In this document: positions 4,450 through 64,000 of the stretch, piece after piece | How positions within the stretch are numbered: the first letter of the stretch is position 1 | Layout: the number at the start of each line of letters is the position of its first letter | Assembly (NCBI GenBank): GCA_001600635.1 | Contig: BCKL01000011.1 | Span: 767,762-831,761, forward strand | Length of the DNA: 64,000 nucleotides | Origin: Leucosporidium creatinivorum | Lineage: Eukaryota; Basidiomycota; Microbotryomycetes; Leucosporidiales; Leucosporidiaceae | Reading direction: 5' to 3' | Translations under genes and position numbers: made by a program | The notes under the pieces: generated by a model | What the model saw: only the letters and a program-made list of their open reading frames with translations | Database searches by the model: none | Told to the model about the DNA's origin: nothing

Positions 4450-4865
4450 AAGGTGAGGTGTCGTGTAGCTCACAAAGAACTCTCGAAGACTCTTCCACGC
4501 AAGCTGGGAGCAGGAGGACATCTGGCGCGACCCTCGAGCTGAGCTCTCCAGGCGAGCGGCTCACCACCGGGCGGGTCTTGCGGAGGAGGTTTCCTGTTCG
4601 AATTCATCGCAAAGAAGCAGTGCCGGCGCACCAAGTTTACTGTACTGCCAGTAATCAGCCTCAGCGACCGAGGAGAAGGCGCCGAGGTCCTGGAGTAGGC
4701 TCTGGAGCGCTGAAAGGGAGCGCCGGGAGCGTGGAAACCGGGGGGTGACTGAAGTGAGGGGAGAGAAAGCTCCGGGTGCAGCGTGCACCTCAGTAAGAGC
4801 ATAACAGGGTGCAGCAATGCCAAAGCTTTGATATTGTACAGACAGTTTGGAAAATCAACAAAGAA

Positions 4866-4938
4866 GCCCGGTTAGCTCAGTCGGTAGAGCACCAGACTCT
4901 TAATCTGGTGGTCGTGGGTTCGAGCCCCACATTGGGCG
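4866..4938 (+). tRNA. tRNA-Lys, anticodon CTT
   Basis: A complete cloverleaf can be folded by eye. The acceptor stem GCCCGGT pairs with ATTGGGC (two G-T pairs), the D arm is TAGCTCAGTCGGTAGAGC, the anticodon stem CCAGA/TCTGG encloses the loop CTCTTAA with anticodon CTT, and the T arm carries GGTTCGAGCC as the B box. The predicted discriminator base is G at 4938. There is no intron and CCA is not encoded, as is usual for a eukaryotic nuclear tRNA. It decodes AAG, the preferred lysine codon of this GC-rich genome. A T-rich run follows immediately. Confidence 0.95.
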
Positions 4939-4948
4939 TTTCTTTTTG
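4939..4948 (+). terminator. RNA polymerase III terminator of tRNA-Lys copy 1
   Basis: TTTCTTTTT directly follows the tRNA 3' end, matching the oligo-T signal used by Pol III. The same run follows the second tRNA copy. Confidence 0.75.
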
Positions 4949-5361
4949 CATATCTGCNCTCTGTTCTGTATCCATCACACACACCGCTGTAGTATAGGCA
5001 GGAGCAGCTGAACCTCTTTTTGCCGCCGAGTGATTTGGAGGGAGGGGGGTGAGGCTCTCGCTGCGTGAGGAGGGGACCACGGCGCAGGGCACCATACGAC
5101 AGCCTTCTACACCGCCCACCATTTCGCTCGTTACGAGGAGGCAGGTGGAAAATCGAGACGCTGAACTTGGACTTCTCAGACCTAGGCTGGCTTCGGCTCA
5201 GCGCTGGTCGCCCTCGCGCGAGTCCGATCCTTCGCGCTCGTCGGAGGGAGCAGCATCTCTGGCTCGCTCAGCAGTCGTATTTGCACGTCAATCACAGTCG
5301 TATTTGCACGTCAATCAATACGACTGCGCTACAATTTGATGGCATGAACATCCGAGCCTAT

Positions 5362-7312
5362 CTACACTTTCTCCACCCAGAGCTCGCCGTTTTTGACCGT
5401 CCCCTTCGGCACCCTCCTCTGTTTCAGCTTCACGTCCTCCTTCGGCTTCTCGTCGCCGAGGATACTATTCTTCTGCTCTTCTCGCTGTTCCTTCCTGACC
5501 TGCACCGCTGTCTGCTGCAAGAAGGAAGCGACTTGCTCGACGGCGTAGCGCTTCTCTCGGTCGGGACCCTTGCTGTTGGTGCGGTAGGCGAGGGGGACAA
5601 ACTGCGAAGATGTGGAGGTAAGCAAGGTCGGGCGCCTGGTTCTTGGCTCGCCGAGCGAAGTCTGAGCTACTCACCGAGTCCGAGAGCACCCAGTCATGAG
5701 CGCCGAGAGCCTTGTAGAGCGGGGTGGGAGCCACTCCAGACTGGGGGTTAGAGGAGGGTCAGTAAGCGCCTGGAAGAGTACTTTCCTAGCGAGGAAGAGC
5801 GCCTACCTTCTCGAGGATCTCAACGAGCTGCTCAATGTCGTCGCTGAAGATCTCCTTGCCGCCTGCGAAGTCAAGAAAAGACGATCAGCTCGGCCCTCGC
5901 ACTAGCGCACACGCGTTCGTCACTCACCCCAGGTCACCATAGTCCTGCCGTTGGGAGGGCAAGCCTCCTTCCACCACGCCTCGTCCGTGCAAACGATGGG
6001 GTTGCAGTACGGCGAGTCAAACAGCGCCAATCCTTCTCCCTCCTGACCAGGTACAAACGCCTTCCGTCCTGGGACAAGCGAGCGAGGTGGCGAAGGATTA
6101 GGGAAAGAGACGAAGTGAATTGGGCTAAACGAGGGAACGGATTGGCGCTCGGGGACGAGGCCGACGTAGTCGTGAGCGGCGCGGTAGGCTCCTCCATCGT
6201 CGATGAAGTCGAAGGGGAGGTTGGTCTTGCGAGAGGGGGTATGCGAGACGAGGTTGACGAAGGGCGAGATGAGGATGGCGGACTGCGAAGACGAGACGCG
6301 GTCAGCTTGGCGAAGGGGGGAATTGCAAGGTGAGCGAACTCACTCCAGGTCGACGAGGCGTAGGGCCAAGGTTGGCCGGTACTTTGATAGCAGGATTGGG
6401 ACGAGCGAGATGAAGAAGGAATCCCGTCGCGATGTTTCCTCCCGCCGAGTCGCCAGCGAGGCAGATCTTCTCCTCGGCGATGCCCACCTCGTTGACGAGG
6501 TAGTGGTATCCAGCCAGCGTCTCGATGAGCTGGGAAGGGTACTTGAACTCGGGTGCAAGCTCATAGTCGAGGCAGAAGACCGAGAATTGGACGTTGCGCT
6601 TGGGGTTGAGGCTCTTGGCGAGCGAGAGGAAGAACAGTTGGGCCTTGCCGGCGGTGTCGAGGCTGCGGGCGAGGGGAAGGTCAGCAATCTTGCTACTCTA
6701 GAGCAGAGAGACGGCAAACCTACAGGAAGCCTCCACCTGTGAAACGAAGCGAGTCAGCTCCGATCCGAACGCCGAGCTTCGAGACAGCGCGACTTACCGT
6801 GCACAAAGTACAAACAGACCTCATCCTCACTCCGCTTAGTCCCAGGAGGAGCGATCCAACGTCCCGTAGTCCCCTTGACATCGACATAGCTCACCCAGTC
6901 GCGATACCCTTTGAAGGGTCGCGAAGCGTGAACTTGATCGTAAGCCCGAGTGCGGTTGAAGATGATGCGAGCCTGAGGTGCGGTGAGACGACTGAGGATG
7001 TATTGCGAGGTCTTGACGACGGCGTCGGCGAGAACGGGGCGGCCGACGACTTGGACGATGGGAGAGCTCCAGCGGGCGATCAAGTGGTTCCACAACAGCG
7101 AGATGGGGAGGGTGATAACTGTGAGAGCAGGAGGTCAGTTATGATCGTCTACCGGATACGCTGAACGTACAGAGGTGCGGCAAGAAGACCCAGAGAAAGT
7201 GCAGCGCGAGCAGCAAGCTCATCCTCTGCGGCTTTGCGCCCGAGACGAGGCCCAAGTGACGCTTGTTGGCGGGAACGGGTGTAGTCCCAGCAGTATCGAG
7301 TGCCTTGGTCAT
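5362..7312 (-). CDS. alpha/beta hydrolase, hormone-sensitive-lipase family (copy A)
   Basis: An esterase/deacetylase-type hydrolase of roughly 470 residues, split by about nine short introns. The start ATG at 7312-7310 begins MTKALDTAGTTPVPANK and is followed by a hydrophobic segment (LLLALHFLWVFLPHL) that can anchor the enzyme in a membrane. The oxyanion-hole motif HGGGF is assembled across an intron. The nucleophile motif GDSAGGN lies near 6440-6470, followed by FLLHLARPNP and PTPRRP. VTWGGKEIFSDD and GAHDWV near the C-terminus provide the likely catalytic Asp and His. These are the hallmarks of the HSL/arylacetamide deacetylase group, which in yeast includes the sterol deacetylase Say1. 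The C-terminus is a charged Lys/Glu-rich tail ending VKNGELWVEKV. Copy B lies just upstream with the same order of motifs and matching intron positions, so the pair arose by tandem duplication. The substrate is unknown. Confidence 0.85.
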
Positions 7313-7464: not shown

Positions 7465-9328
7465 TTAGACGCGTCGACGAAGAGTCGACTTGGAAGCTGC
7501 CCCCTGTCCACTGCTCGTCGCCGACCTCGCCGAGCTGCCAAAGTGCTCTAGGAGAAAGGCGGCCACAGAATCGACGCCGTACTCCTGGTAGCTGTCAGGT
7601 CCCCTTGATGCGGTCTTCCACAGGCCCGGCACGCTCTGCAAAAAAGAAGCGAGTGGATCAGCTCGGCGCCGAGCTCCGAGGCAGCAAAAGCGACTGACCG
7701 AGTCGAAGATGACCCAATCATGGGCACCGAGCTCCTTGAAGAGCTTGCTAGGTGCGACGCCGGCCTGTCAAGCAAGCGAAAGCTGTCAGCTACGCTTTGC
7801 GACCAGAGGTCGACTCTCGGCGCACCTTCTGCAGCACGCCGAACAGCTCCTCATCATCGTCAGCGAAAATCTCCTTGCCACCTACAGCGTGCGCCATGTC
7901 AGCTTTGCGTTCAAGTGAGCTGAGAGCACAAGACTCACCCCAAGTGACCAACGTCTTGCCGTCCCCGGGCATCGCGGTCTTCCACCACTCAAGATCCTCG
8001 CACCTCGACGGATTGACATAAGGCGAGCTCAGCATCTTCACTCCAAATCCTTCCTCTTCCGCCTCGAACGCTCCCGTCTCCTTGATGAAGGGAAAGTCCT
8101 TCGGGGGAGGGTCGTTGGGATAGCCTCGGGCGAGGAAGAGAGGGTTGAGGGAAGGAGCCGAGCGACAGGACGAGGGAACGGGGGCGTTGACGTAGTCCAG
8201 GGCCGCTTGGAAGCAGGAGCCGTCGTCGATAATGTCGTATGAGGCGTTGGAGGAGCGGGAGGCAGTGAAGGAGACGAGATTGTTGAAGGGCGAGATGAGG
8301 ATGGCGGCCTGCGGGCGCAAGACTTCGTCAGTGGGGATGTCGAGCCGCCCAGTTGATGAACACACAGCTCACAGCAGGACGACGAGGCGTAGGGCCGAGC
8401 TCGGCGGGCACCTTGATGCGAGGGTTCGGCCGAGCGAGGTGAAGGAGGAAAGCGGTCGCAAGATTGCCTCCCGCCGAGTCGCCTGCGAGTACGATCTTGT
8501 CTTCCGAGACGCCGAGAGTGTTGACGAGGTAGTGGTAGGCAGCGAGCGTCTCGATGAGCTGCGAGGGGTACTTGAACTCGGGCGCGAGCTCGTAGTCGAG
8601 GTGGAAGATGGAATAGCGGAAGCCTTCGTCGAGGTTGAGCTTCTTGGCGAGCTCGATATGGAACGGAATACCGTTCCCACCACAGTCCAACCTGTCAGAG
8701 CGTAGGTCAGCTCTGGCAGCTTCGCTCGAGCATCGCCGAACTGCTCACGTGAAGCCTCCGCCTATCCATGGCAAGTGTGAGCTATCGCACAGAGTCTTGC
8801 GGGAGAGAACCAAAACTCACCATGAATGTACAACATCACCAAGTCATCCTCATCTCTCTTGGTTCCAGGCGGCGCGATCCAGTAGCCCGTCGTCCCATTC
8901 GACTCGACCCACTGCACCCAATCCGCCGACATTCCAAGTCGAGCGAGTGTCTTGGAAATGAGACCAGCGTACGCTCCATGATTGAAGACGAGCCGTGACT
9001 GGCTCGTCGAACAGCGGCCGAAGAAGTGAACGCCGGAGAGGGCGCTGACAAGACCTTGGGGCGTGCGACCCATGGCCACGTAGGGAGATGACGAGCGAGC
9101 AAGAACGTATTCCTTGATGAGCTTGAAAGGGAGCGAGACGACGACTGTACAGCAGCAAGACGGTCAGCTCGAATCAAGATTGAAAGTGTGGGGCAGCTCA
9201 CAGGGAACGACAAGGACGAAGGCAAAGTGCAGCGCTTGGAAGAGGGTGACTTTCTGTACGGGAGCTCCAGTGACTAGCCCGAGCTTGACCTTGCTCGGCG
9301 GGACGGTCGCAAGTTGTTGGGAAGGCAT
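7465..9328 (-). CDS. alpha/beta hydrolase, hormone-sensitive-lipase family (copy B)
   Basis: This is the tandem paralogue of the hydrolase at 5362-7312, about 440 residues, with the same architecture. The ATG at 9328-9326 starts MPSQQLATVPPSKVKLG, then a membrane-anchor-like stretch (FQALHFAFVLVV). HGGGF is made across an intron, GDSAGGN lies near 8470-8490, and VTWGGKEIFADD and LGAHDWVIFDS supply the rest of the presumed triad. The end was set at the TAA at 7465-7467, giving the C-terminus KSTLRRRV. The two copies share exact peptides such as YELAPEFKYPSQLIETLA and FLLHLARPNP, yet the region between oxyanion hole and nucleophile and the C-terminal tails differ, so they have probably diverged in substrate. 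It is divergently transcribed from kynureninase with 230 bp between start codons. Confidence 0.85.
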
Positions 9329-26447: not shown

Positions 26448-26878
26448 AGGTGTCGTGTAGCTCACAGAGAACTCTCGAAGACTCTTCCACGCAAGCTGGG
26501 AGCAGGAGGACATCTGGCGCGACCCTCGAGCTGAGCTCTCCAAGTCTCGGCGACGAGCCAGGTGAGCGGCTCAGCGCCGGGCGGGTCTTGCGGAAGAGGA
26601 TTCCCGGACTTAATCCGTCTCAAGGAAGCAGCGCCAGCGCACCAAGTTTACTGTACTGCCAGTAATCAGCCTCAGCGACCGAGGAGAAAGCGCCGAGGTC
26701 CTGGAGTAGGCTCTGGAGCGCTGAAAGGGAGCGCCGAGAGCGTGGGAACCGGGGGGTGACTGAAGTGAGGGGAGAGAAAGCTCCGGGTGCAGCGTGCACC
26801 TCAGTAAGAGCATATAACAGGGTGCAGCAATGCCAAAGCTTTGATATTGTACAGACAGTTTGGAAAATCAACAAAGAA

Positions 26879-26951
26879 GCCCGGTTAGCTCAGTCGGTAG
26901 AGCACCAGACTCTTAATCTGGTGGTCGTGGGTTCGAGCCCCACATTGGGCG
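26879..26951 (+). tRNA. tRNA-Lys, anticodon CTT (second copy)
   Basis: Identical over all 73 bases to the tRNA-Lys at 4866-4938, with the same CTCTTAA anticodon loop, GGTTCGAGCC B box and G discriminator. It lies in the duplicated segment and has the same downstream T-run, so it is expected to be functional. Confidence 0.95.
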
Positions 26952-26961
26952 TTTCTTTTTG
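26952..26961 (+). terminator. RNA polymerase III terminator of tRNA-Lys copy 2
   Basis: TTTCTTTTT immediately after the tRNA, same as copy 1. Confidence 0.75.
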
Positions 26962-27206
26962 CATATCTGCNCTCTGTTCTGTATCCATCACACACACCGC
27001 TGTAGTATAGGCAGGAGCAGCTGAACCTCTTTTTGCCGCCGAGTGATTTGGAGGGAGGGGGGTGAGGCTCTCGCTGCGTGAGGAGGGGACCACGGCGCAG
27101 GGCACCATACTACAGCCTTTGACACGCATTTCGCTCGTTACGAGGAGACGCTGAACGTGGACTTCCAGACCTAGGCTGGCTTCGGCTCGGCGCTGGTCGC
27201 CCTCGG

Positions 27207-27819
27207 CGCTGGCCTTTCGTACGTCCAAGACTACCCACAGCCCCTAAGGTGATACTCGTAGCTCGATTCCCGACACTGCACGTCCGACTGCAGCGAGTAG
27301 CATCAAGAGCAGCCTCGTTCGAGCAATTCGAGCCAACGCGGCGCTTCCAGCCAAGCTACAGGTACCGGAATGCGATAGAGATAGGGTAGATTGTCAAGTC
27401 TACCACTCGACGAGCTGTTGACTTTCAGGGCGCTTGGTGACGAGGAAGCATGATCCGTCGAGCCTTCGCCGAGCAGGATTCCTCGGAGGTTGCTTCCCTC
27501 TGAGCGAGCGTGTCGCTCACCCATGATTACCAGACAGAATTCAGATATCGTGAGGTAGTTCCTGGAGGGTCGAAGCTCTCCGATGAGCTACAGAGCGAGG
27601 ATTCGGCCGATGTCGCCGAAAGGGACTTCTGTACCCTGTACAAGGGTATGCGACATCTACAGACTTCATGCAATGTATCTGAAAAGAGCCATCAACAGCC
27701 CGCTGCCAAAAAATGTAGCGGATGCGCCGACTCGAACTTCAACTCGGGCCACGACCGAGACGACTTGAGCTCGACAAGGCGGTGAGGCCCTCTGCCACCT
27801 CCCACACGCTTCGAACGAC
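27207..27819. other. upstream region of the intersectin gene
   Basis: About 610 bp between repeat copy 2 and the intersectin start codon. It should hold that promoter and leader. Short open frames here show no protein character. No second EH domain is encoded here. Confidence 0.45.
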
Positions 27820-54563: not shown

Positions 54564-57500
54564 ATGGAACGCGTTACAGCTTGGAGAGAAGGATTAGGAG
54601 GACAGGACGATACTAGAGCTAGTACTACTAGTAGTAACAACAATTCGGCCCGCCTCTCGTCCAACATTATCGACCTCACCTCCGACTCGTCCCAGGACGG
54701 ATCTCCCGATTCTGTTCGCATCGTCAATCGCGCCCCATCTGGTCCAGTACAGCAACAGCAGCAACCTCGTCCCAAAGCGCTCGCCTCCATGTTCCTCCCC
54801 CGTCAGCAGCAACCTCTCCGACCGCTCAACAATCAACAAGCTGGTCCCTCGGGCCAACAACCCGCCTTCGCCTTCGCCTCGTCCTCAGCAGCTTTCGGTC
54901 AGCCCAACCGACTCACAGGCATGCCTCGCATCCCCAAGAAGGCCCCTCAACCCCGCTTCGAAGTCGACGACGACGCGAGCCCAGAATCGCCCGCTTCGAC
55001 CTCGTCCATCCAAGTCTCTCAGCCCAAGTTCGCCTCCTCGAGCAAGGCTTTCCAATCCAGCAACAATGAAGCGCGTAGCAGTGCCGGCAACTTGACCTCG
55101 AATGGTGGAACCAGCTCCTGGGGAAGGCCGTCGACCAGCGGAGCTTCGGCTTCGACGATGGGAGTGGGAGCTAGTCAGGGAGGGTTGAATGTCAAGCAGA
55201 GGATCGCGTTGGCGATGCAGAAGGAGGCCAAGAGCAAGGGACTGACGATGGGCACGCCGATTGCCGTTCCCAAGAACCCAGTCAGGACGGCGCCGAAGCC
55301 TGGTGAGTTGGTCCTTCTGCTTCGTCGTGCTAAAGAGCTTGCTGATCATGTCTTCCCCAACTCTCACCACCTCCTCCTACCCTCTCTCCCATCGAACAAC
55401 AGCCGCGCACGCCCGCAACTCCTCCACCTCGGACCCTCTCGCCGAGGAAGCCCTCCCCGACCTCGGCTTCAGCGACAACCTTGCGCCCGCGGACCAAGAA
55501 GCCGCTCTCGCCGAACTCCTCTCCACAACTCTCGACCTCTCGGCAGCCTCGACCCTCGCCTCCGACACTCCTTCCTCCCTGCTCTGCTCGCTCCTCCCGC
55601 ATCAAGTGCAGGGATTGCATTGGTTGAAGGACCGCGAGAAGGGCAAGAAGAGGGGTGGGATCTTGGCGGATGATATGGGGTTGGGCAAGACGGTGCAGAT
55701 GCTGGCGTTGATTTTGGCCAACCCGAGCGAGGGGGAGACGGCGGTCAAGTTGAGCACGGGGAGAAGGTGCAAGACGACTTTGGTGAGTGGTTTCGCTCAC
55801 TCTGCTGAAGCAGAACATCGCTGATGAGGATGGTACAACAGATCATCTGCCCCGTCGCCCTCATGCAGCAGTGGAAGACCGAGATTGAAACCAAATCGGA
55901 CGCTGGGCTCACCGTCTGCATTCACCACGGCACGGGCAAGAAGTCGGGTACGTCCAGCTCGCTCTTCCTTCTCCCTCATCTCCATTCGAGCCCTCACTGA
56001 CTCGCTCCTTCCCCATCTCTCTTCCCTCTCTCACGGTCCCCCTCGCCACCCACCCACAGCCCGCCAACTCGCCAAGTACGACATTGTCCTCACTTCCTAC
56101 AACACCGCCGCCGCCGAATGGGTCGACCCCAAGCCCAAGCGCAAGAAGAAGGGAGCCAAGGACGACGAGGAGGAAGGCGGGAGCGATGATGGAGCTGTGG
56201 CTGTGGTGGAGAAGAAGGAGAGGGGCGCGCTGTTTGGGGTGGAGAAGTGGTATAGGAGTGAGTGCTTGCCTTTGATGGAGGAGTGTAGAGCGGAGGAGAT
56301 GAGATGAGAGCCGAGCTGACCGACCGTCTCTTTCTCGCCTAACAGTTATGTACGCCGAGCTCCGTCTTAGAGTCGCCTTCGGAACCCTCGCTAACCTTTC
56401 CTTATCTCTAGCCTCGACGAAGCTCACTCGATTAAGGGCCGCACGACCAAGTGAGTTTTTACTCGCTCCCGCCGAATCAAATCGAGCTCGAGCTGACCTC
56501 GCCTTCCCGTGCATTCGTGCAGAGCTCACAAGGCTTGTTGCGATCTCGTTGGTCACTACAAGTGGTGCTTGTCTGGTACTCCGTGAGTTCGATCTCTCTG
56601 CTTTTGGCTCTCGTCGCTCTCGGTCGTTCGCGCCGCCGCAGCTGACCTCTCATTCGCTCCTCCACCTCGCCTCCTCCACTCCCACCGAATTCCTCCATCC
56701 CATCTCCCTCTCCCACCCCAGCATCCAAAACGGCGTCCTCGACCTCTTCTCCCTCTTCGAGTTCCTCGGCAAGATCGTCAACCCGCTGCACGACTTTTCC
56801 GAGTTCAAGCTCAAGATCTCGGACCCGCTCAAGAACAAGAGGACAAAGATTGCCATGACCCGTCTCGCTGTCGTGCTCAAGGCGGTGATGCTGAGGAGGA
56901 CCAAGACGATGATGATTGATGGGAAGCCGTTGCTTGCTTTACCGAAGAGGGAGGTGATTGAGATTAAGGGACCGTTCTTGGATGAGTGAGTGACCTCTCC
57001 TTCGCTTCTTGTGATGTCGAGTGCTTGGTGCGGCGGGGATGGCGGAGTAGAGCTGACCGACCGGCTCCCCCTTTTCAACCCGCAGAGACGAGCTCGCCTT
57101 CTACAAGGCCGTCGAGGAGAAGATGACGCTCACCATGAACGCCTTCCTCAAGGCCGGTACCGCCATGTCCAACTACACCTCGGTCTTGATCCTCCTCCTC
57201 GTATGTCGCGCGCTCGCATCTCCCTCCTCCTCTGCGGCCGCTGACCTCTCTCCTTCTCTCCCCAACAAATCTACAGCGCATGCGCCAAGCCTGCTCCCAC
57301 CCCTCCCTCATCACCAGCTCCAACGCCGCCCTCGACCGCGAAGCCCTCGCCGACCCTGACCCCGCCTCCGCCGCCGCCGCCATTCCCGAAGAGGACGACC
57401 TGTCGTCCCTCCTCTCCGGCCTCGAATCCCTCAGTGTCGCTCAAGGTCGGCAGTGTGCGCTGTGCGATCAGAGCGCAGAGAAGGGCGAGGAGGAGCCGTA

Positions 57501-58620
57501 TTGTCGGAAGTGTAGGGAGAGCATGAGGGGCTTGGGAGGCGTTAAGATGAGTACGAAGGTCAAGAAGATGTTGCAGGTGTTGGAGGGGATCAGGAAGGAG
57601 GATCCGAAGAGGAAGACGATTGTGTTCTCGCAGGTGAGTTTGAGTTTGAGAAGGGGAGGGAAGGAGAAGCTCGAGCTGACCCGAGATAACGCCCACAGTT
57701 CACGAGCATGTTCAACGTCATCGAACCCTTCCTCAAGACCGCTGGCTACAAGTTTGTCCGCTGTGAGTAGCTCGTTGCTCGTCCCTGTGGAAGAGAGCCG
57801 AGTTGCTGATCTCGTTCTCGTTCGCCGCTTCTCTCTCTATAGTCGACGGCAAGCTGAACGCCGTGCAGAAGGAGGCGGCGCTCAAGAAGATCCGCGAGGA
57901 CCCCAAGACGACCATCATCCTCATCTCGTGAGTCGCCTGGCCATCGTTGACGAGCTGGGCGCGGGTAGACGAGCAGAGCTTACTCGATCTCTTGTATCTT
58001 CCACCACCTACAGCATCAAGTGTGGCTCCGTCGGACTCAACTTGACTGTCTGCAGTCGTGTCATCTTGCTCGACCTCTGGTGAGTCTCGAGACTTTAGCG
58101 CCGAAGTGGCTCAACGAAGGTGACACTCGCCCTTCTCTTTGGTGCAACAGGTGGAACCCTGCTATCGAGTGCGCTTTCTTCCTTCCGACTGCTTGTAGCT
58201 TTCGCTGACCTCTCCTTCCCTCTCTTCGCCTCGCGCAGAGCCCAAGCCTTCGACCGGTTCGTCTGCTTGCTCTCTTCCTCTGTCCTCCCTCCCTGCGACC
58301 TCCTTCTACCCATCCGTCTTCTCTTTCCAGCACATCATCACTGACGCTCTCGCTTCTCTCGTAGTGCTCACCGCTTCGGCCAAAAGGAGGACGTCAAGAT
58401 CTATAAGATCACCGTCGACAACACCATCGAAGACCGTATCCTTATGCTCCAACAGGAGAAGGCCGAGGTGGCCAAAGCCGCCTTGGAAGGAGGCGATATG
58501 ACCAAGGCCAACAAGCTGTCGATGAGGGACATGTTGTACCTGTTCCGGGGCGATGGGGAGGGTGCTAGGGAGGGGAAGAGCAAGGGGAAGGGAAAGGCGA
58601 GGGAGGATGAGAGTGATTAG
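54564..58620 (+). CDS. SNF2-family ATPase with four-Cys insert (Rad5/Rad16/Uls1 group)
   Basis: Nuclear DNA-dependent ATPase of about 1,000 residues with a dozen small introns after a long first exon. The N-terminus carries IIDLTSDSSQ, a SUMO-interaction-like acidic/hydrophobic motif, then a Gln/Ser-rich disordered region. Helicase blocks: LLPHQVQGLHWLKDRE, ILADDMGLGKTVQMLALIL (motif I), IICPVALMQQWKTEIE, YDIVLTSYNT, LDEAHSIKG (motif II, near 56415), CLSGTPIQN, then LRMRQACSHPSLI, KTIVFSQFTSMFNVIEPFL, LISIKCGSVGLNL, VILLDLWWNPAIE and AHRFGQKEDVKIYKI. Between the two ATPase lobes, where Rad5/Rad16/Uls1 carry a C3HC4 RING, only C-ALC and YC-RKC remain (about 57453-57515), so ubiquitin ligase activity is doubtful. 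Closest known relatives would be the S. pombe Rrp1/Rrp2 and Uls1-type translocases; the exact orthologue is not settled. The stop is at 58618-58620. Confidence 0.85.
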
Positions 58621-58927
58621 AGTTGAGAGGGAGTTGGGGAGCGGGGGAGCGAAGGAGGGAGGCGGCGAGGGAGGGGAGGGACGACTACTGCTCGGGATCC
58701 GCTTTACACTGTCTTGGTTGTGCACTAGATTACGCATTTGCTTTGTCAACACGCCGCAGCACTGAGAGGGTGCAAGACTGGAGGCGAACGTCTTATCCTT
58801 CGGCGCTCGGTGAAGGCTAAGCTGGAAGGGGGACCGCTTGCAGCGTCTCGTCGTCAGCTAGCGCGGGGCTTCAGGATTACGAGATGCGTTGGCGCGTAGT
58901 CTTACTCTTCGAGCGCAGCCGCGCTGC
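58621..58927. other. 3' region of SNF2 gene
   Basis: Purine-rich near the SNF2 stop codon; no gene recognised before repeat A. Confidence 0.4.
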
Positions 58928-59278
58928 TGGAGGAGCAGGAGCACGAGCACCTCGGCGAAGAGGTCTGGAGAGAACAGGACGGTCCAGCGAGAGCTCAAGA
59001 GCGGAGTTGGAGCCTGGTCGATTGTACACCAGTAGAATCGTGCGATTTGGAGCTCAGTCGAGCGCGAGCTCTCGGCGCTGCTACTAGTAGTGAGCTCGGA
59101 GCGAACACCGACCTCCTNTCGATTCAGGCAGCCCTCGCCGGCTGCCTCTCGAAAGCTCGAAGGCGAGTTTCCCCTTTGCCTCTTTGTATCTACTCGACTC
59201 CATCAAGAAGACACGTAAGGCGCTGTCCATCACCTTGTACCGACTATCCAGCACCTACCCACGACCCGCCCTACCGCC
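58928..59278 (+). repeat. inverted repeat A, left copy
   Basis: About 350 bp that recur in reverse orientation at 61543-61900. The inner 260 bp are nearly identical; the outer (left) end carries substitutions and 1-2 base indels. Homology stops sharply at CGCCCTACCGCC (59278). It reads as a fragment of a spliced gene: GAGGAGCAGGAG..., a possible intron ending CGATTCAG, and a peptide YLLDSIKKTRKALSITLYRL whose family I do not recognise. Confidence 0.8.
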
Positions 59279-59479
59279 TGGGCCGAGCCGGTTCCGAGTC
59301 CGAGTCCTCTGCCGCGAGCTCTCGCCTCTCATGATGCGCGTCGGGAAAGCTGGCAATGCTGGAGATGCGCTGAAGCTGCTGTTCCTGCTCTCCTTCTCGG
59401 CAATGTACGAAATGTCCCCCTTTGCTTGGGTGGAAGCCTCGGCGCTCCTCACGAACTGCCATTTCTGAGTGCGCTGCAC
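59279..59479. other. unique segment between repeats A and B
   Basis: About 200 bp not shared with either partner repeat. The left boundary follows CGCCCTACCGCC and the right boundary precedes the SHE9-like fragment. No gene can be supported. Confidence 0.5.
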
Positions 59480-59726
59480 TGCGAGCTTGTGCGAGACGTT
59501 CTGTATTGACACCGCGCGGTGGTACTTTGGTGGAGAAGGTGGACTCGGTGTGAGGCGGCGGCGGCGGAGGAGCAGCAGGCTCGGGGCCAGCGAGACGAGG
59601 GGTCGAGGAGCTGAAGCAGCGCCGGGGCGAGGCGGCGAGCTGTAGGAGGGTAGTCGATGTAGATGTAGCTCTTCTTGACGCGTAGATGCAAGCGAGGCAG
59701 CCCCGAACAGGACCAGCGGCGAACAT
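59480..59726 (-). pseudogene. SHE9 5' fragment (truncated duplicate)
   Basis: On the minus strand this encodes MFAAGPVRGCLACIYASRR and the following mitochondrial presequence of the SHE9 gene at 63005, up to ERLAQAR. After that the reading frame continues into unrelated sequence and lacks the coiled-coil and membrane parts. The nucleotide match to 63005-63251 is high but drops in the last 90 bp (several substitutions, for example VPPRGVN against APPRGVT). It lies just downstream of intact RPS4 on the same strand, as the left copy of inverted repeat B. It may still be transcribed, since it keeps the SHE9 leader. Confidence 0.8.
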
Positions 59727-60246
59727 GCGAACCGACCGAGCGAGCGGAAGGCAAGGAGGAGCGGCGGCGAGCGCGACCAGCCCGAGACTTGGCCTGGGAG
59801 AGACTTCGACCGACCTTCGCAGTGAGGCAAATGTTCACCTCAAGACATCTGGGACTAGACACAGTGACATATTTCGAAAGAGAGAGCTGGTTTTGCAATC
59901 CCTTCCACCCTCACACACAGACTCGTCGAAGCCACAACGAACAATTAAGCACGCTGCTTCTCGGCGATCTTGCGCCTCTGATCACGCTCCTCAGTGATAG
60001 AGAGCTTGACACCCTTGCCCTTGGGAAGCCTGTGTAGCGGAGAGCAGAGCGCGGTCAGTGGAGGCCCGCCGTGATGGACAGCTTGTGGCTGCCCGACTCG
60101 CTCGGCGATGATGGAGGTTNAACTCACGAGACCCAGGCCTTGTTTCCCTGTCCAGTCACAAACACGTTTCCGATGCGGGTGGCGAACTCGCGGTCAAGAA
60201 CGTCACGGACGTGGATCTGTGGTAGCAGCGCGGGAGGAGGGTCAGC
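59480..60246 (-). repeat. inverted repeat B, left copy (RPS4 3' end plus SHE9 5' end)
   Basis: 767 bp whose reverse complement occurs at 62485-63251 with no insertions or deletions: paired positions always sum to 122731. It includes the last two RPS4 exons with the intron between them, the RPS4-SHE9 spacer, and the SHE9 presequence. It is essentially identical except in the final 90 bp within SHE9. Confidence 0.9.
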
Positions 60247-61260
60247 GTTCTGCTCGAGGCAGGCAGCGCCGAGGGAAGGTCGAACGCACGATGTCGAAAC
60301 CTCCGAGGTGACGCTCCCTGTGAACGATAACTCCACTCCTGCCCATGTTGCGTCCTCCGGTAGCCATGACAAGGTTTCCGGCCTCGAACTTGATGTGGTC
60401 GACGATCTTCTGCTCGACGAGGTCGAACTTGACGGTGTCGTTGACCTTGATGGCGGGGTCGGGGTAACGGATGGTGCGGCCATCGTGGGTGACAATGAAA
60501 GGAACACCCTTGGCGCCGAGCTGAACCTTCTTGACCTTGAGGAGCTTGTAGGTAGCCTCCTCAGCGGTGATGCGGTGGATGGCGAAGCGTCCCTTGACGT
60601 CGTAAAGGAGACGGAAGTGCTCTCCCGACTTCTCAATCGAGATAACATCTGGTGTACGCACACGAGGGTCAGCCTACTGCTCGACTCGGTGCAGCCGAAC
60701 AAGCTCCCAAACTCACCCATGAATCCAGCGGGGTAGGTCTCATCGGTGCGGACCTTGTTGTCGACCTTGACAAGACGCTGCTTGACGATGAGAGTGACCT
60801 CACGTCCGGTAAGAGCGTACTTGAGACGGTTGCGGATGAAGATCTGAGGGAAGGGGAGCTGGGTCAGCTTGACGGCCCTGCTCGGCGAGTGGTTGTTGTT
60901 GCGTTGCGAAGGCTGTGCGGCGCTGTTCAAGTTCACCAAACGGCGATTCCCTCCCCGTGCATTCTTGTGCATTCATCGGTGACGCCTGCGACTCGTCTCG
61001 TCCCTTCTAATAGCTCCTTCGAGCCTGACGCGGCGATGGAAGAGTTGTGCTCACAGTAAGGGGGAGGCACTCGCGGAGCTTGTGGGGTCCGGGCGAAGGC
61101 CTGGGGGCGTAAGTGCCACCGAGCTTGTCCAGCATCCACTGCAGAGAGATGTATCGGGTCAGCTTGCACGTCCGGCGGTCGAGCAGGGGGACCTTCTCTC
61201 GGTACTCACGCTGGAGGGGGCTGCCAAGCGCTTCATGTGCTTCTTAGGTCCGCGTCCCAT
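59945..61260 (-). CDS. RPS4: 40S ribosomal protein S4 (eS4)
   Basis: Complete small-subunit ribosomal protein of about 260 residues. The first exon (61260-61210) encodes [17 protein letters not shown], then [20 protein letters not shown] and LRECLPLT, then [134 protein letters not shown] and [20 protein letters not shown], ending [20 protein letters not shown]. This matches eS4 throughout, including the S4 RNA-binding and KOW parts. Six or seven exons. A leader intron (61262-61352, GC donor) ends one base before the ATG. The 3' end lies in inverted repeat B, and a truncated SHE9 follows on the same strand. Confidence 0.95.
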
Positions 61261-61261
61261 G

Positions 61262-61352
61262 CTGTAGTATAGTCGAAGGTGCGGGTGAAGGGAAGGAGAT
61301 GAAGGGAAGGATGGGCGAGCAAAGGGTCAGCTTCAAAGTCCGGCGAACTCGC
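61262..61352 (-). other. GC-AG intron in the RPS4 5' leader
   Basis: On the minus strand CAG/GCGAGT at 61352 is followed by GCTGACCC and a TACTACAG acceptor ending at 61262, one base before the start codon. Leader introns are common in ribosomal protein genes of fungi. The GT nearest this point gives no comparable donor. Confidence 0.55.
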
Positions 61353-61542
61353 CTGACTTGGCCCTCCTTCTGTAGACGACCAGCAGTTCCCGCGACATCC
61401 TGCAAGCCTGCATATTCTTCCTCCTAGTCGTCTGCACTGCTTCCCACTTTCCCAGCTGCTCTGCAACGCTTCAGCAGCCTTCTCCTCCTCCCTCGACGAA
61501 AACTTCCCTCCCTCGCTCTCTCCCAGTGCCAGCAAAGTGTAG

Positions 61543-61900
61543 GGCGGTAGGGCGGGTCGTGGGTAGGTGCTGGATAGTCGGTACAAGGTGATGGACAGCG
61601 CCTTACGTGTCTTCTTGATGGAGTCGAGTAGATACAAAGAGGCAAAGGGGAAACTCGCCTTCGAGCTTTCGAGAGGCAGCCGGCGAGGGCTGCCTGAATC
61701 GATAGGAGGTCGGTGTTCGCTCCGAGCTCACTACTAGTAGCAGCGCCGAGAGCTCGCGCTCGACTGAGCTCCAAATCGCACGATTCTACTGGTGTACAAT
61801 CGACCAGACTCCAACTTCGCTCTTAAGCTCGCTGGACCGTCCTGTTCTCGACACGCCTTCGCCGAGGTGCTCTTGCTCCTGCTCCTCTTCCATCAACGCT
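61543..61900 (-). repeat. inverted repeat A, right copy, with uncharacterised gene fragment
   Basis: Reverse-oriented partner of 58928-59278 (paired positions sum to 120821 over the inner part). On the minus strand it could encode MAQQAALMEEEQEQEHLGEG, an intron ending CGATTCAG, then SFPFASLYLLDSIKKTRKA and RLSSTYPRPALPPYTLLALG. Beyond the repeat the frame stays open to the RPS4 leader (SEGGKFSSREEEKAAEALQ). I do not recognise the protein. The two copies differ in frame in the first exon, so at least one is a broken fragment; this right copy looks the more complete. Confidence 0.6.
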
Positions 61901-62484
61901 GCCTGCTGGGCCATGGGGTATGTACGAAAGTCGTTTTACTCGAACATCGGAGCTCCACGCAAGGTTTTCAGGCGTCGAGAGCTGTTTGCCCAGGCGAGCT
62001 CAGCCTTCGCCGAGCGCCGAGGGTGACCTCGCCCTTCGCGTGCACCCTCTCGGGACAGTTGAACGGCGGAACACCAGAACATGCACCTTAGTATGCAGCC
62101 AAGGGAATGTAAGACTGTAAGAATCGCGATAGGTCTGCAGCCTCAGCTCGCCTCGCGTCCGGCCTTCGCCCCTCCTCATGTCGTTCCCTCCCGCTTCCAT
62201 TTCCCTCTGCCGTGCTCAAGCTTGTTCGGCGTGAGTTAGAAAGACATTAGTGGGCTTGAAATCGCTGTCAAATCGTGTACATCAGCCCGTGGCTCGGCAC
62301 GTGTGCGCCGAACGTCCGCTACTAACTCGGCCCTTGACCTCGAATGTAACCTGTAGACTCCTTCTGCGGGTCCAAACGTCGCTCGTGTTGGTTTAAAAAG
62401 TGCTTTGGGGTCTCTTCTGTAGACTGGGTTGGGGGAGGTTTCGACATCGTGCGTTTTGGTCTTTGCTCGGCGCTGGGCTCGGAA
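61901..62484. other. unique segment between repeats A and B (right side)
   Basis: About 580 bp without a supported gene. It contains CTCGGCG words common in this genome. The rearrangement breakpoint upstream of the partial RPS4 copy lies at about 62484. Confidence 0.45.
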
Positions 62485-63251
62485 GCTGACCCTCCTCCNG
62501 CGCTGCTACCACAGATCCACGTCCGTGACGTTCTTGACCGCGAGTTCGCCACCCGCATCGGAAACGTGTTTGTGACTGGACAGGGAAACAAGGCCTGGGT
62601 CTCGTGAGTTNAACCTCCATCATCGCCGAGCGAGTCGGGCAGCCACAAGCTGTCCATCACGGCGGGCCTCCACTGACCGCGCTCTGCTCTCCGCTACACA
62701 GGCTTCCCAAGGGCAAGGGTGTCAAGCTCTCTATCACTGAGGAGCGTGATCAGAGGCGCAAGATCGCCGAGAAGCAGCGTGCTTAATTGTTCGTTGTGGC
62801 TTCGACGAGTCTGTGTGTGAGGGTGGAAGGGATTGCAAAACCAGCTCTCTCTTTCGAAATATGTCACTGTGTCTAGTCCCAGATGTCTTGAGGTGAACAT
62901 TTGCCTCACTGCGAAGGTCGGTCGAAGTCTCTCCCAGGCCAAGTCTCGGGCTGGTCGCGCTCGCCGCCGCTCCTCCTTGCCTTCCGCTCGCTCGGTCGGT
63001 TCGCATGTTCGCCGCTGGTCCTGTTCGGGGCTGCCTCGCTTGCATCTACGCGTCAAGAAGAGCTACATCTACATCGACTACCCTCCTACAGCTCGCCGCC
63101 TCGCCCCGGCGCTGCTTCAGCTCCTCGACCCCTCGTCTCGCTGGCNCCGAGCCTGCTGCTCCTCCGCCGCTGCCGCCCCACACCGAGTCCACCTTCTCCA
63201 CCAAAGCACCACCGCGCGGAGTCACTACAGAACGACTCGCCCAAGCTCGCA
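62485..63251 (+). repeat. inverted repeat B, right copy
   Basis: Partner of 59480-60246. The homology starts within an RPS4 intron, at GCTGACCCTCCTCC just before the acceptor of the penultimate RPS4 exon, and ends in SHE9 exon 1 at CAAGCTCGCA. Three ambiguous bases (62499, 62611, 63146) fall in this copy. Confidence 0.9.
62515..62786 (+). pseudogene. RPS4 3'-end duplicate (last two exons only)
   Basis: Exon 62515-62603 encodes [19 protein letters not shown] and [10 protein letters not shown]; after an intron (62604-62701) the second exon encodes [19 protein letters not shown] to KIAEKQRA and stops at 62784-62786. The sequence equals the RPS4 3' end at 59945-60230. There is no RPS4 coding sequence upstream of 62485, so this copy cannot make S4 on its own. 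It is followed after 218 bp by SHE9. Confidence 0.88.
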
Positions 63252-64000
63252 CGCAGGCCCAGCTGCAGCTCAACGCCCTCCTCGCGACCCTCAACTCGAC
63301 CGCCCGGAAACATGGAAGGTCCTGGGCAGCGGCTCTGGCGGCTCTGGAGCTCGAGCGGAAGCTCAGGGAGGTCGGTGGCAAGATCAATCAAGCTACAGGC
63401 TATGAGGAGATTGAGCGGTTGAGGCTGGGAGTCGCAGACAGAGGTGCGTGCGAGCTGTCGCGTCGAACGGCGGGGAGCTGACCCTCTGGCTGAGAGGACA
63501 GAGAAGGCGCTGCTAGCAGCACGGGAGCAAGCTGCGCTGAGCAAGAAGGCTTATCACGCTGCTGTTGCCGTTCGCGCGGATTCGCAGAAGGAGGTCAACG
63601 ACTTGCTTCAGCGGAAGTCGAGCTGGCAGTCCGCTGATGTACTCAGGTAAGGTCTTTCGCTTCGGCTCAGATAGCGTGACAAATGCTGACCGCTCTGTCT
63701 CCAGGTTCACCGAGCTCATCCAGCAGGATCACGAGAACGAGCGGGCCGAGTCGCAGGCGAAGACGGGCATGGACGAGGGTGAGGAGAAGGTCGAGAAGGG
63801 CTTCTCAGGTATGTCGTTCCGATGCTGTCGGAGACTAGAAAAGATGCTGACTTTGCTCTTCGCCCAGACCTCATGCAGTCGATCCTCGAGCGCTATCACG
63901 AGGAGCAAGTCTGGAGCGACAAGGTGAGCCTTCTCGGCGCAGGACAATAGGCCGTCGGCTGACCCGCTTCTGCGCAGATCCGGTCTCTCTCCACCTACGG
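63005..64000 (+). CDS. SHE9: mitochondrial inner-membrane protein She9/Mdm33, 5' part
   Basis: The gene runs off the right edge. The start MFAAGPVRGCLACIYASRR opens an Arg/Ser/Ala-rich mitochondrial presequence with RCFSSSTPR. The coiled-coil body follows: KINQATGYEEIERLRLGVAD, AREQAALSKKAYHAAVAVRA, SQKEVNDLLQRKSSWQSADV, LRFTELIQQDHENERAESQA, DLMQSILERYHEEQVWSDKI and RSLSTYG. This is the She9/Mdm33 signature (GYEEIE, R-x-S-Q-x-EVN-LLQRK-SW, RYHEEQ-WSDKIRS). The family controls inner-membrane morphology and fission in yeast mitochondria; its two membrane helices lie beyond the window. Introns are at about 63650-63700, 63810-63867 and 63924-63978. The first intron (donor at about 63442) does not join in phase to the next exon as read, which could be a sequence error close to the N at 63146 or a genuine one-base change. 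Confidence 0.85.

Follow-up and report, generated by a model that had tools for sequence, protein, structure and literature searches.

A probable single-gene inversion around RPS4 in Leucosporidium creatinivorum, with both breakpoints duplicated

Gene order in fungi regularly changes through small inversions of a single gene, whose mechanism is seldom visible. A recurrent inversion of the mammalian X chromosome, with homogenised inverted repeats, was reportedly described by Caceres et al. Among other relatives of the arrangement studied here, inversions 2h and 2q of Drosophila mojavensis are described as carrying inverted duplications at both breakpoints, those of 2q measuring ~1 kb and 4.3 kb, one per breakpoint (PMC3355041). 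In the flip/flop region of Saccharomyces chromosome XIV, a pair of 4.2-kb repeats encloses 24 kb and 15 genes; strains of either orientation are documented, and ~4% of conversions resolve as crossovers, a figure that the source gives by citation (PMC9731477). In the FF1 and FF2 systems, by which budding yeasts switch mating type, a segment is turned when the inverted repeats beside it recombine, and FF2 species such as Komagataella phaffii are described with two repeat pairs, termed the outer and the second repeat (PMC6692504). Here, we analyse 64,000 nucleotides (nt) of the basidiomycete Leucosporidium creatinivorum (assembly GCA_001600635.1, contig BCKL01000011.1, positions 767,762 to 831,761; hereafter the window), in which the gene RPS4 (eS4) lies between two interleaved inverted repeats, and argue that it was probably turned by a past inversion that duplicated both breakpoint regions in inverted orientation, the cores of the duplicates being homogenised later.

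The locus has the layout X - A - filler - [B M A] inverted - filler - B - Y, where X is an SNF2-family gene, Y is the body of SHE9, M is the single-copy body of RPS4 with its proximal upstream region, and A and B are segments present in two inverted copies each (Table 1). The two pairs are interleaved in the order A B A′ B′, have unequal position sums and meet different neighbours at each copy, with the left A next to X, the right A next to RPS4, the left B next to the RPS4 body and the right B next to the SHE9 body. As the initial annotation of this DNA had it, the left copy of B, on the minus strand, joins an intact RPS4 to a truncated SHE9, and the right copy, on the plus strand, joins a truncated RPS4 to a fuller SHE9. 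Our gene models bear this out: on the left, RPS4 is complete by its exon model and SHE9 stops after ...ERLAQAR, and on the right, a remnant of exon 4 is followed by exons 5 and 6 of RPS4 and by a SHE9 that has a Pfam match.

Repeat B had been reported as an exact 767-bp inverted repeat with position pairs summing to 122731 and no indel. Its length, the constant sum and the lack of indels hold across both arms, which enclose a spacer of 2238 nt, but the arms are not exact, as they differ by seven clean mismatches (59490, 59496, 59506, 59511, 59524, 59553 and 59560) and include three position pairs with an N, two of them opposite a base (59585/63146 and 60232/62499) and one with N in both copies (60120/62611). 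All seven clean mismatches fall within the outer 81 of the 767 nt, for which the naive probability, computed post hoc with the pattern already seen, is 1.5e-7, and the remaining core of 686 nt (59561-60246) has none apart from its three N sites. When gaps are allowed, the homology extends inward as far as 60304/62434, so that the right-hand stub keeps 15 nt from the end of RPS4 exon 4, together with intron 4 in diverged form. B is the longest of five inverted pairs of at least 40 nt in the whole window, and off the locus there are only a 44-nt pair (73% identity) and a 40-nt pair (70%).

The second inverted repeat, A, had been overlooked. It is 288 nt long with a position sum of 120821, has three clean mismatches, again at its outer edge (58996, 59004 and 59013), and a single N at 59118, so its 265-nt core (59014-59278) is identical except for that N. 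Diverged homology continues outward to ~58764/62051 by BLAST, or to ~58625/62208 in a gap-lenient alignment. In the latter, the core (bins 59000-59278) matches in 276 of 279 columns and has no gap. In the outer flank (bins 58600-58999), 109 columns are gaps and, of the 326 aligned, 275 match. Chance repetition is ruled out, as the outer flank of A alone scores 171 compared to 29.9 +- 4.4 for first-order Markov resamplings, none of which (0 of 200) scored as high. BLAST found no extra copy of A or B within the 64-kb window, a result that bears on a transposon or dispersed-repeat reading for the window only.

The two junctions imply an ancestor, entirely on the plus strand, in which A separated X from RPS4 and B separated RPS4 from SHE9, and thereby support the earlier proposal that RPS4 once preceded SHE9 on one strand. 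Inverted copies of DNA that recurs nowhere else in the window stand at both ends of the turned segment (A/A′ and B/B′), as in inversions of the staggered-break type. From this observed layout and homology, we infer a starting order X - A - RPS4 - B - SHE9 and two staggered breaks, or an equivalent copying event during repair, by which single-stranded overhangs at the two ends, one spanning A and one spanning B, would have been filled in and the middle segment rejoined backwards. The edges of the arms would then have diverged, while the cores would have been held identical via gene conversion between copies. Because the duplicated B holds both the 3′ end of RPS4 and the start of SHE9, neither gene would have been lost in the inversion.

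Such an inversion with duplicated breakpoints is a known type of event, of which this locus would be a further example. Compared with 2h and 2q as described for D. mojavensis, it is fungal, turns a single gene over ~2-3 kb and combines identical repeat cores with at least one much diverged flank, and its ancestral order is reconstructed from the junctions (PMC3355041). The nearest yeast parallel is Saccharomyces chromosome XIV, where inverted repeats are likewise homogenised by conversion and occasional crossovers are proposed to flip the segment (PMC9731477); here, by contrast, two short pairs are interleaved and a single sequence presents one orientation. The FF1 and FF2 systems, as described, serve mating-type switching (PMC6692504), whereas our pairs are interleaved and the segment between them carries RPS4. 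No mating-type domain occurs among the Pfam matches of 29 of the 51 open reading frames (ORFs) of at least 150 codons and of five other proteins, the other 22 ORFs and short exons lying outside that scan, and we therefore set a mating-type flip/flop aside. In the mating-type region of Rhodotorula graminis, three identical ~280 bp repeats, one of them inverted, are described (PMC3236058); repeat A is of similar size, but with no mating-type domain among the ORFs scanned, the likeness may be coincidence. Among part of the matching papers, judged by titles and abstract openings, we found no published description of the present locus.

The identity of the cores is most likely that of an old duplication homogenised by gene conversion. 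On our gene models, the A core and the 218-nt RPS4-SHE9 intergenic part of B are non-coding, so selection at the protein level does not explain why they are identical; gene conversion does. A direct duplication elsewhere in the window (4456-5219 / 26448-27209) has a tRNA-Lys(ctt) gene in each copy (4866-4938 and 26879-26951), with 22 kb between them. It too is identical at the centre and diverged at the edges, with an N at the matching sites 4958 and 26971, and this shared pattern makes conversion, or else pooling of reads, a general feature of the window.

Several points nevertheless weigh against a past inversion with duplicated breakpoints. Both the direction of change and its mechanism are only what we infer, because no relative was found that would show the ancestral order; in searches of viral, bacterial and archaeal DNA, where absence says little, the SHE9 and RPS4 proteins had no match in viral contigs and SHE9 had none in genome contigs. 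The 201- and 225-nt junction fillers lack an explanation, and the 84% identity of the A flank comes from an alignment that permits cheap gaps and is an upper estimate. A two-step origin would yield the same map, and reads may have been pooled between copies, with small core differences hidden and identity overstated, since N is confined to the repeats. All seven N of the window (4958, 26971, 59118, 60120, 62499, 62611 and 63146) lie in repeat copies and none elsewhere; as these copies make up ~4193 of 64000 nt, the naive probability is 5.2e-9, which suggests that the assembler pooled short reads of paralogous copies. Two N pairs, 60120/62611 and 4958/26971, occupy mirrored or matching positions, and an artefact of the DISCOVAR assembler with very long inverted repeats has been described (PMC6692504). 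A misjoin of short reads from repeats or from two haplotypes, which would make the inverted layout or the core identity unreal, is nonetheless unlikely in our view: misjoining one sequence would produce neither the distinct, diverged edges of the copies nor a pair of unlike fillers, the absence of N outside repeats gives no sign of a second haplotype, and the DISCOVAR repeats, as described there, reach contig ends, whereas ours do not. In the two-step origin, a template switch would have duplicated or triplicated the whole A-RPS4-B block in inverted orientation before the surplus RPS4 bodies were deleted; the final map would be identical and the fillers would be compatible with template-switching repair, but several events would be needed, each leaving one complete RPS4, and no remnant of a second RPS4 body was found in the window, so that we hold this route to be improbable.

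Whether the locus still moves is a separate matter. Recombination between the copies had been said to rebuild a full RPS4, and indeed an in-silico inversion through B (59900/62831) or A (59150/61671) leaves the RPS4 coding sequence unchanged, and with these crossover points the start of SHE9 is not part of what is turned; the claim was incomplete in that it overlooked the second, interleaved pair. After a flip through B the copies of A are direct, after a flip through A those of B are, in either case 1910 nt apart, and deletion between direct copies by either route yields an identical product of 62,090 nt, in which the A and B cores are each single and the six RPS4 exons precede SHE9 in their proper order (X-RPS4-SHE9). 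This equality is largely built in, since the cores are identical. On paper, then, RPS4 could turn through a rare crossover of the arms, and a later deletion between the direct repeats would restore the ancestral locus. As a flip opens this deletion route, frequent crossing-over should remove the structure, and the survival of the structure with a diverged A flank argues that crossing-over is not frequent; it points to rare crossovers, to selection for the structure or to a population mixture invisible in one assembly. The active flip-flop suggested by the initial annotation, with arms recombining often enough for both orientations of RPS4 to coexist in the culture or population, goes unsupported. 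It could draw on a 686-nt B core and a 265-nt A core without a clean mismatch, and on a gene that stays intact through either pair, but the diverged A flank speaks for an old structure, which frequent crossovers would probably have removed, and on S. cerevisiae chromosome XIV, zero orientation changes are reported in ~53,800 mitoses and 950 meioses (PMC9731477); we consider it unlikely. It is likewise improbable that RPS4 forms a reversible cassette, facing X convergently in one state and preceding SHE9 in tandem in the other, with two flipped isomers and a single-copy pop-out coexisting in populations and upheld by ongoing recombination between the arms.

For the proposed past inversion of RPS4, the interest of the locus is that both duplicated breakpoints are still readable, one of them showing how an inversion can pass through two adjacent genes and spare both. 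The interleaved layout predicts that a crossover at either pair leads via direct repeats back to the ancestral order, and the persistence of the structure thus gauges how often conversion occurs without crossing-over. Different isomers in different strains, if they were found, would make the locus a natural flip-flop of very small size.

Gene assignments at the locus rest on domain and structure matches. The domain SNF2-rel_dom (PF00176, E 8.2e-08) lies in the ORF 56348-56989 of gene X. The coding sequence of the left RPS4 has six exons and 795 nt, and its product of 264 amino acids has Pfam S4e-type domains and a top PDB match to eS4 (E 1.2e-133). The left SHE9 copy keeps its first exon up to the truncation point, after which filler begins, and has no Pfam match. 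Its truncated frame on the minus strand (59271-59726) stays open through filler 1 into A, giving 151 amino acids that begin as SHE9 does and end in a new tail; ~11% of filler shuffles are stop-free in that tail frame, so the open frame may be due to chance, and its product has no Pfam match. In ten alignments, the fillers were compared with M, with each other, with the 3′ region of X and with DNA downstream of SHE9; 26 to 191 of 200 resamplings scored as high, and a derivation of the fillers from eroded SHE9 or X is accordingly unsupported. BLAST of the fillers against the window returned matches of 12-14 nt only, with a best tblastx E of 0.010, and their source may lie in another part of the genome.

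Table 1. Features of the RPS4-SHE9 locus, in window positions.
Feature	Position	Strand	Remarks
Gene X (SNF2-family), 3′ part	56348..58619	+	Stop codon 58617-58619 read from sequence; start is that of the domain-bearing ORF, not of the gene
A, diverged outer part	58764..58990	+	Gap-lenient alignment takes it to ~58625
Repeat A, left copy	58991..59278	+	Between X and the duplicated SHE9 start; inverted copy 61543-61830
Junction filler 1	59279..59479	.	201 nt; without a convincing counterpart in the rest of the window
Repeat B, left copy	59480..60246	-	RPS4 3′ end (exons 5-6), intergenic DNA, truncated SHE9 start; 59561-60246 identical except 3 N sites
RPS4 (eS4), intact	59945..61260	-	Exons 61260-61210, 61138-61055, 60843-60717, 60648-60290, 60216-60128, 60029-59945
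M, single-copy RPS4 body and proximal upstream region	60247..61542	-	Between the B and A arms
Repeat A, right copy	61543..61830	-	Upstream of RPS4; diverged continuation to ~62051 or 62208
Junction filler 2	62209..62433	.	225 nt; without a convincing counterpart in the rest of the window
RPS4 3′ stub	62434..62786	+	Final 15 nt of exon 4, intron 4 (diverged), exons 5-6; read from sequence
Repeat B, right copy	62485..63251	+	
SHE9/MDM33, fuller copy	63005..64000	+	She9_MDM33 PF05546, E 8.4e-47; continues past the window end

By base counts, the G+C content of the window is 60%, and introns are dense; together with the gene families, these features would suit a fungus, probably a basidiomycete. 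Away from the locus, a direct repeat of 285 nt (6339-6623 / 8368-8652) has its copies 2029 nt apart at 77% identity.
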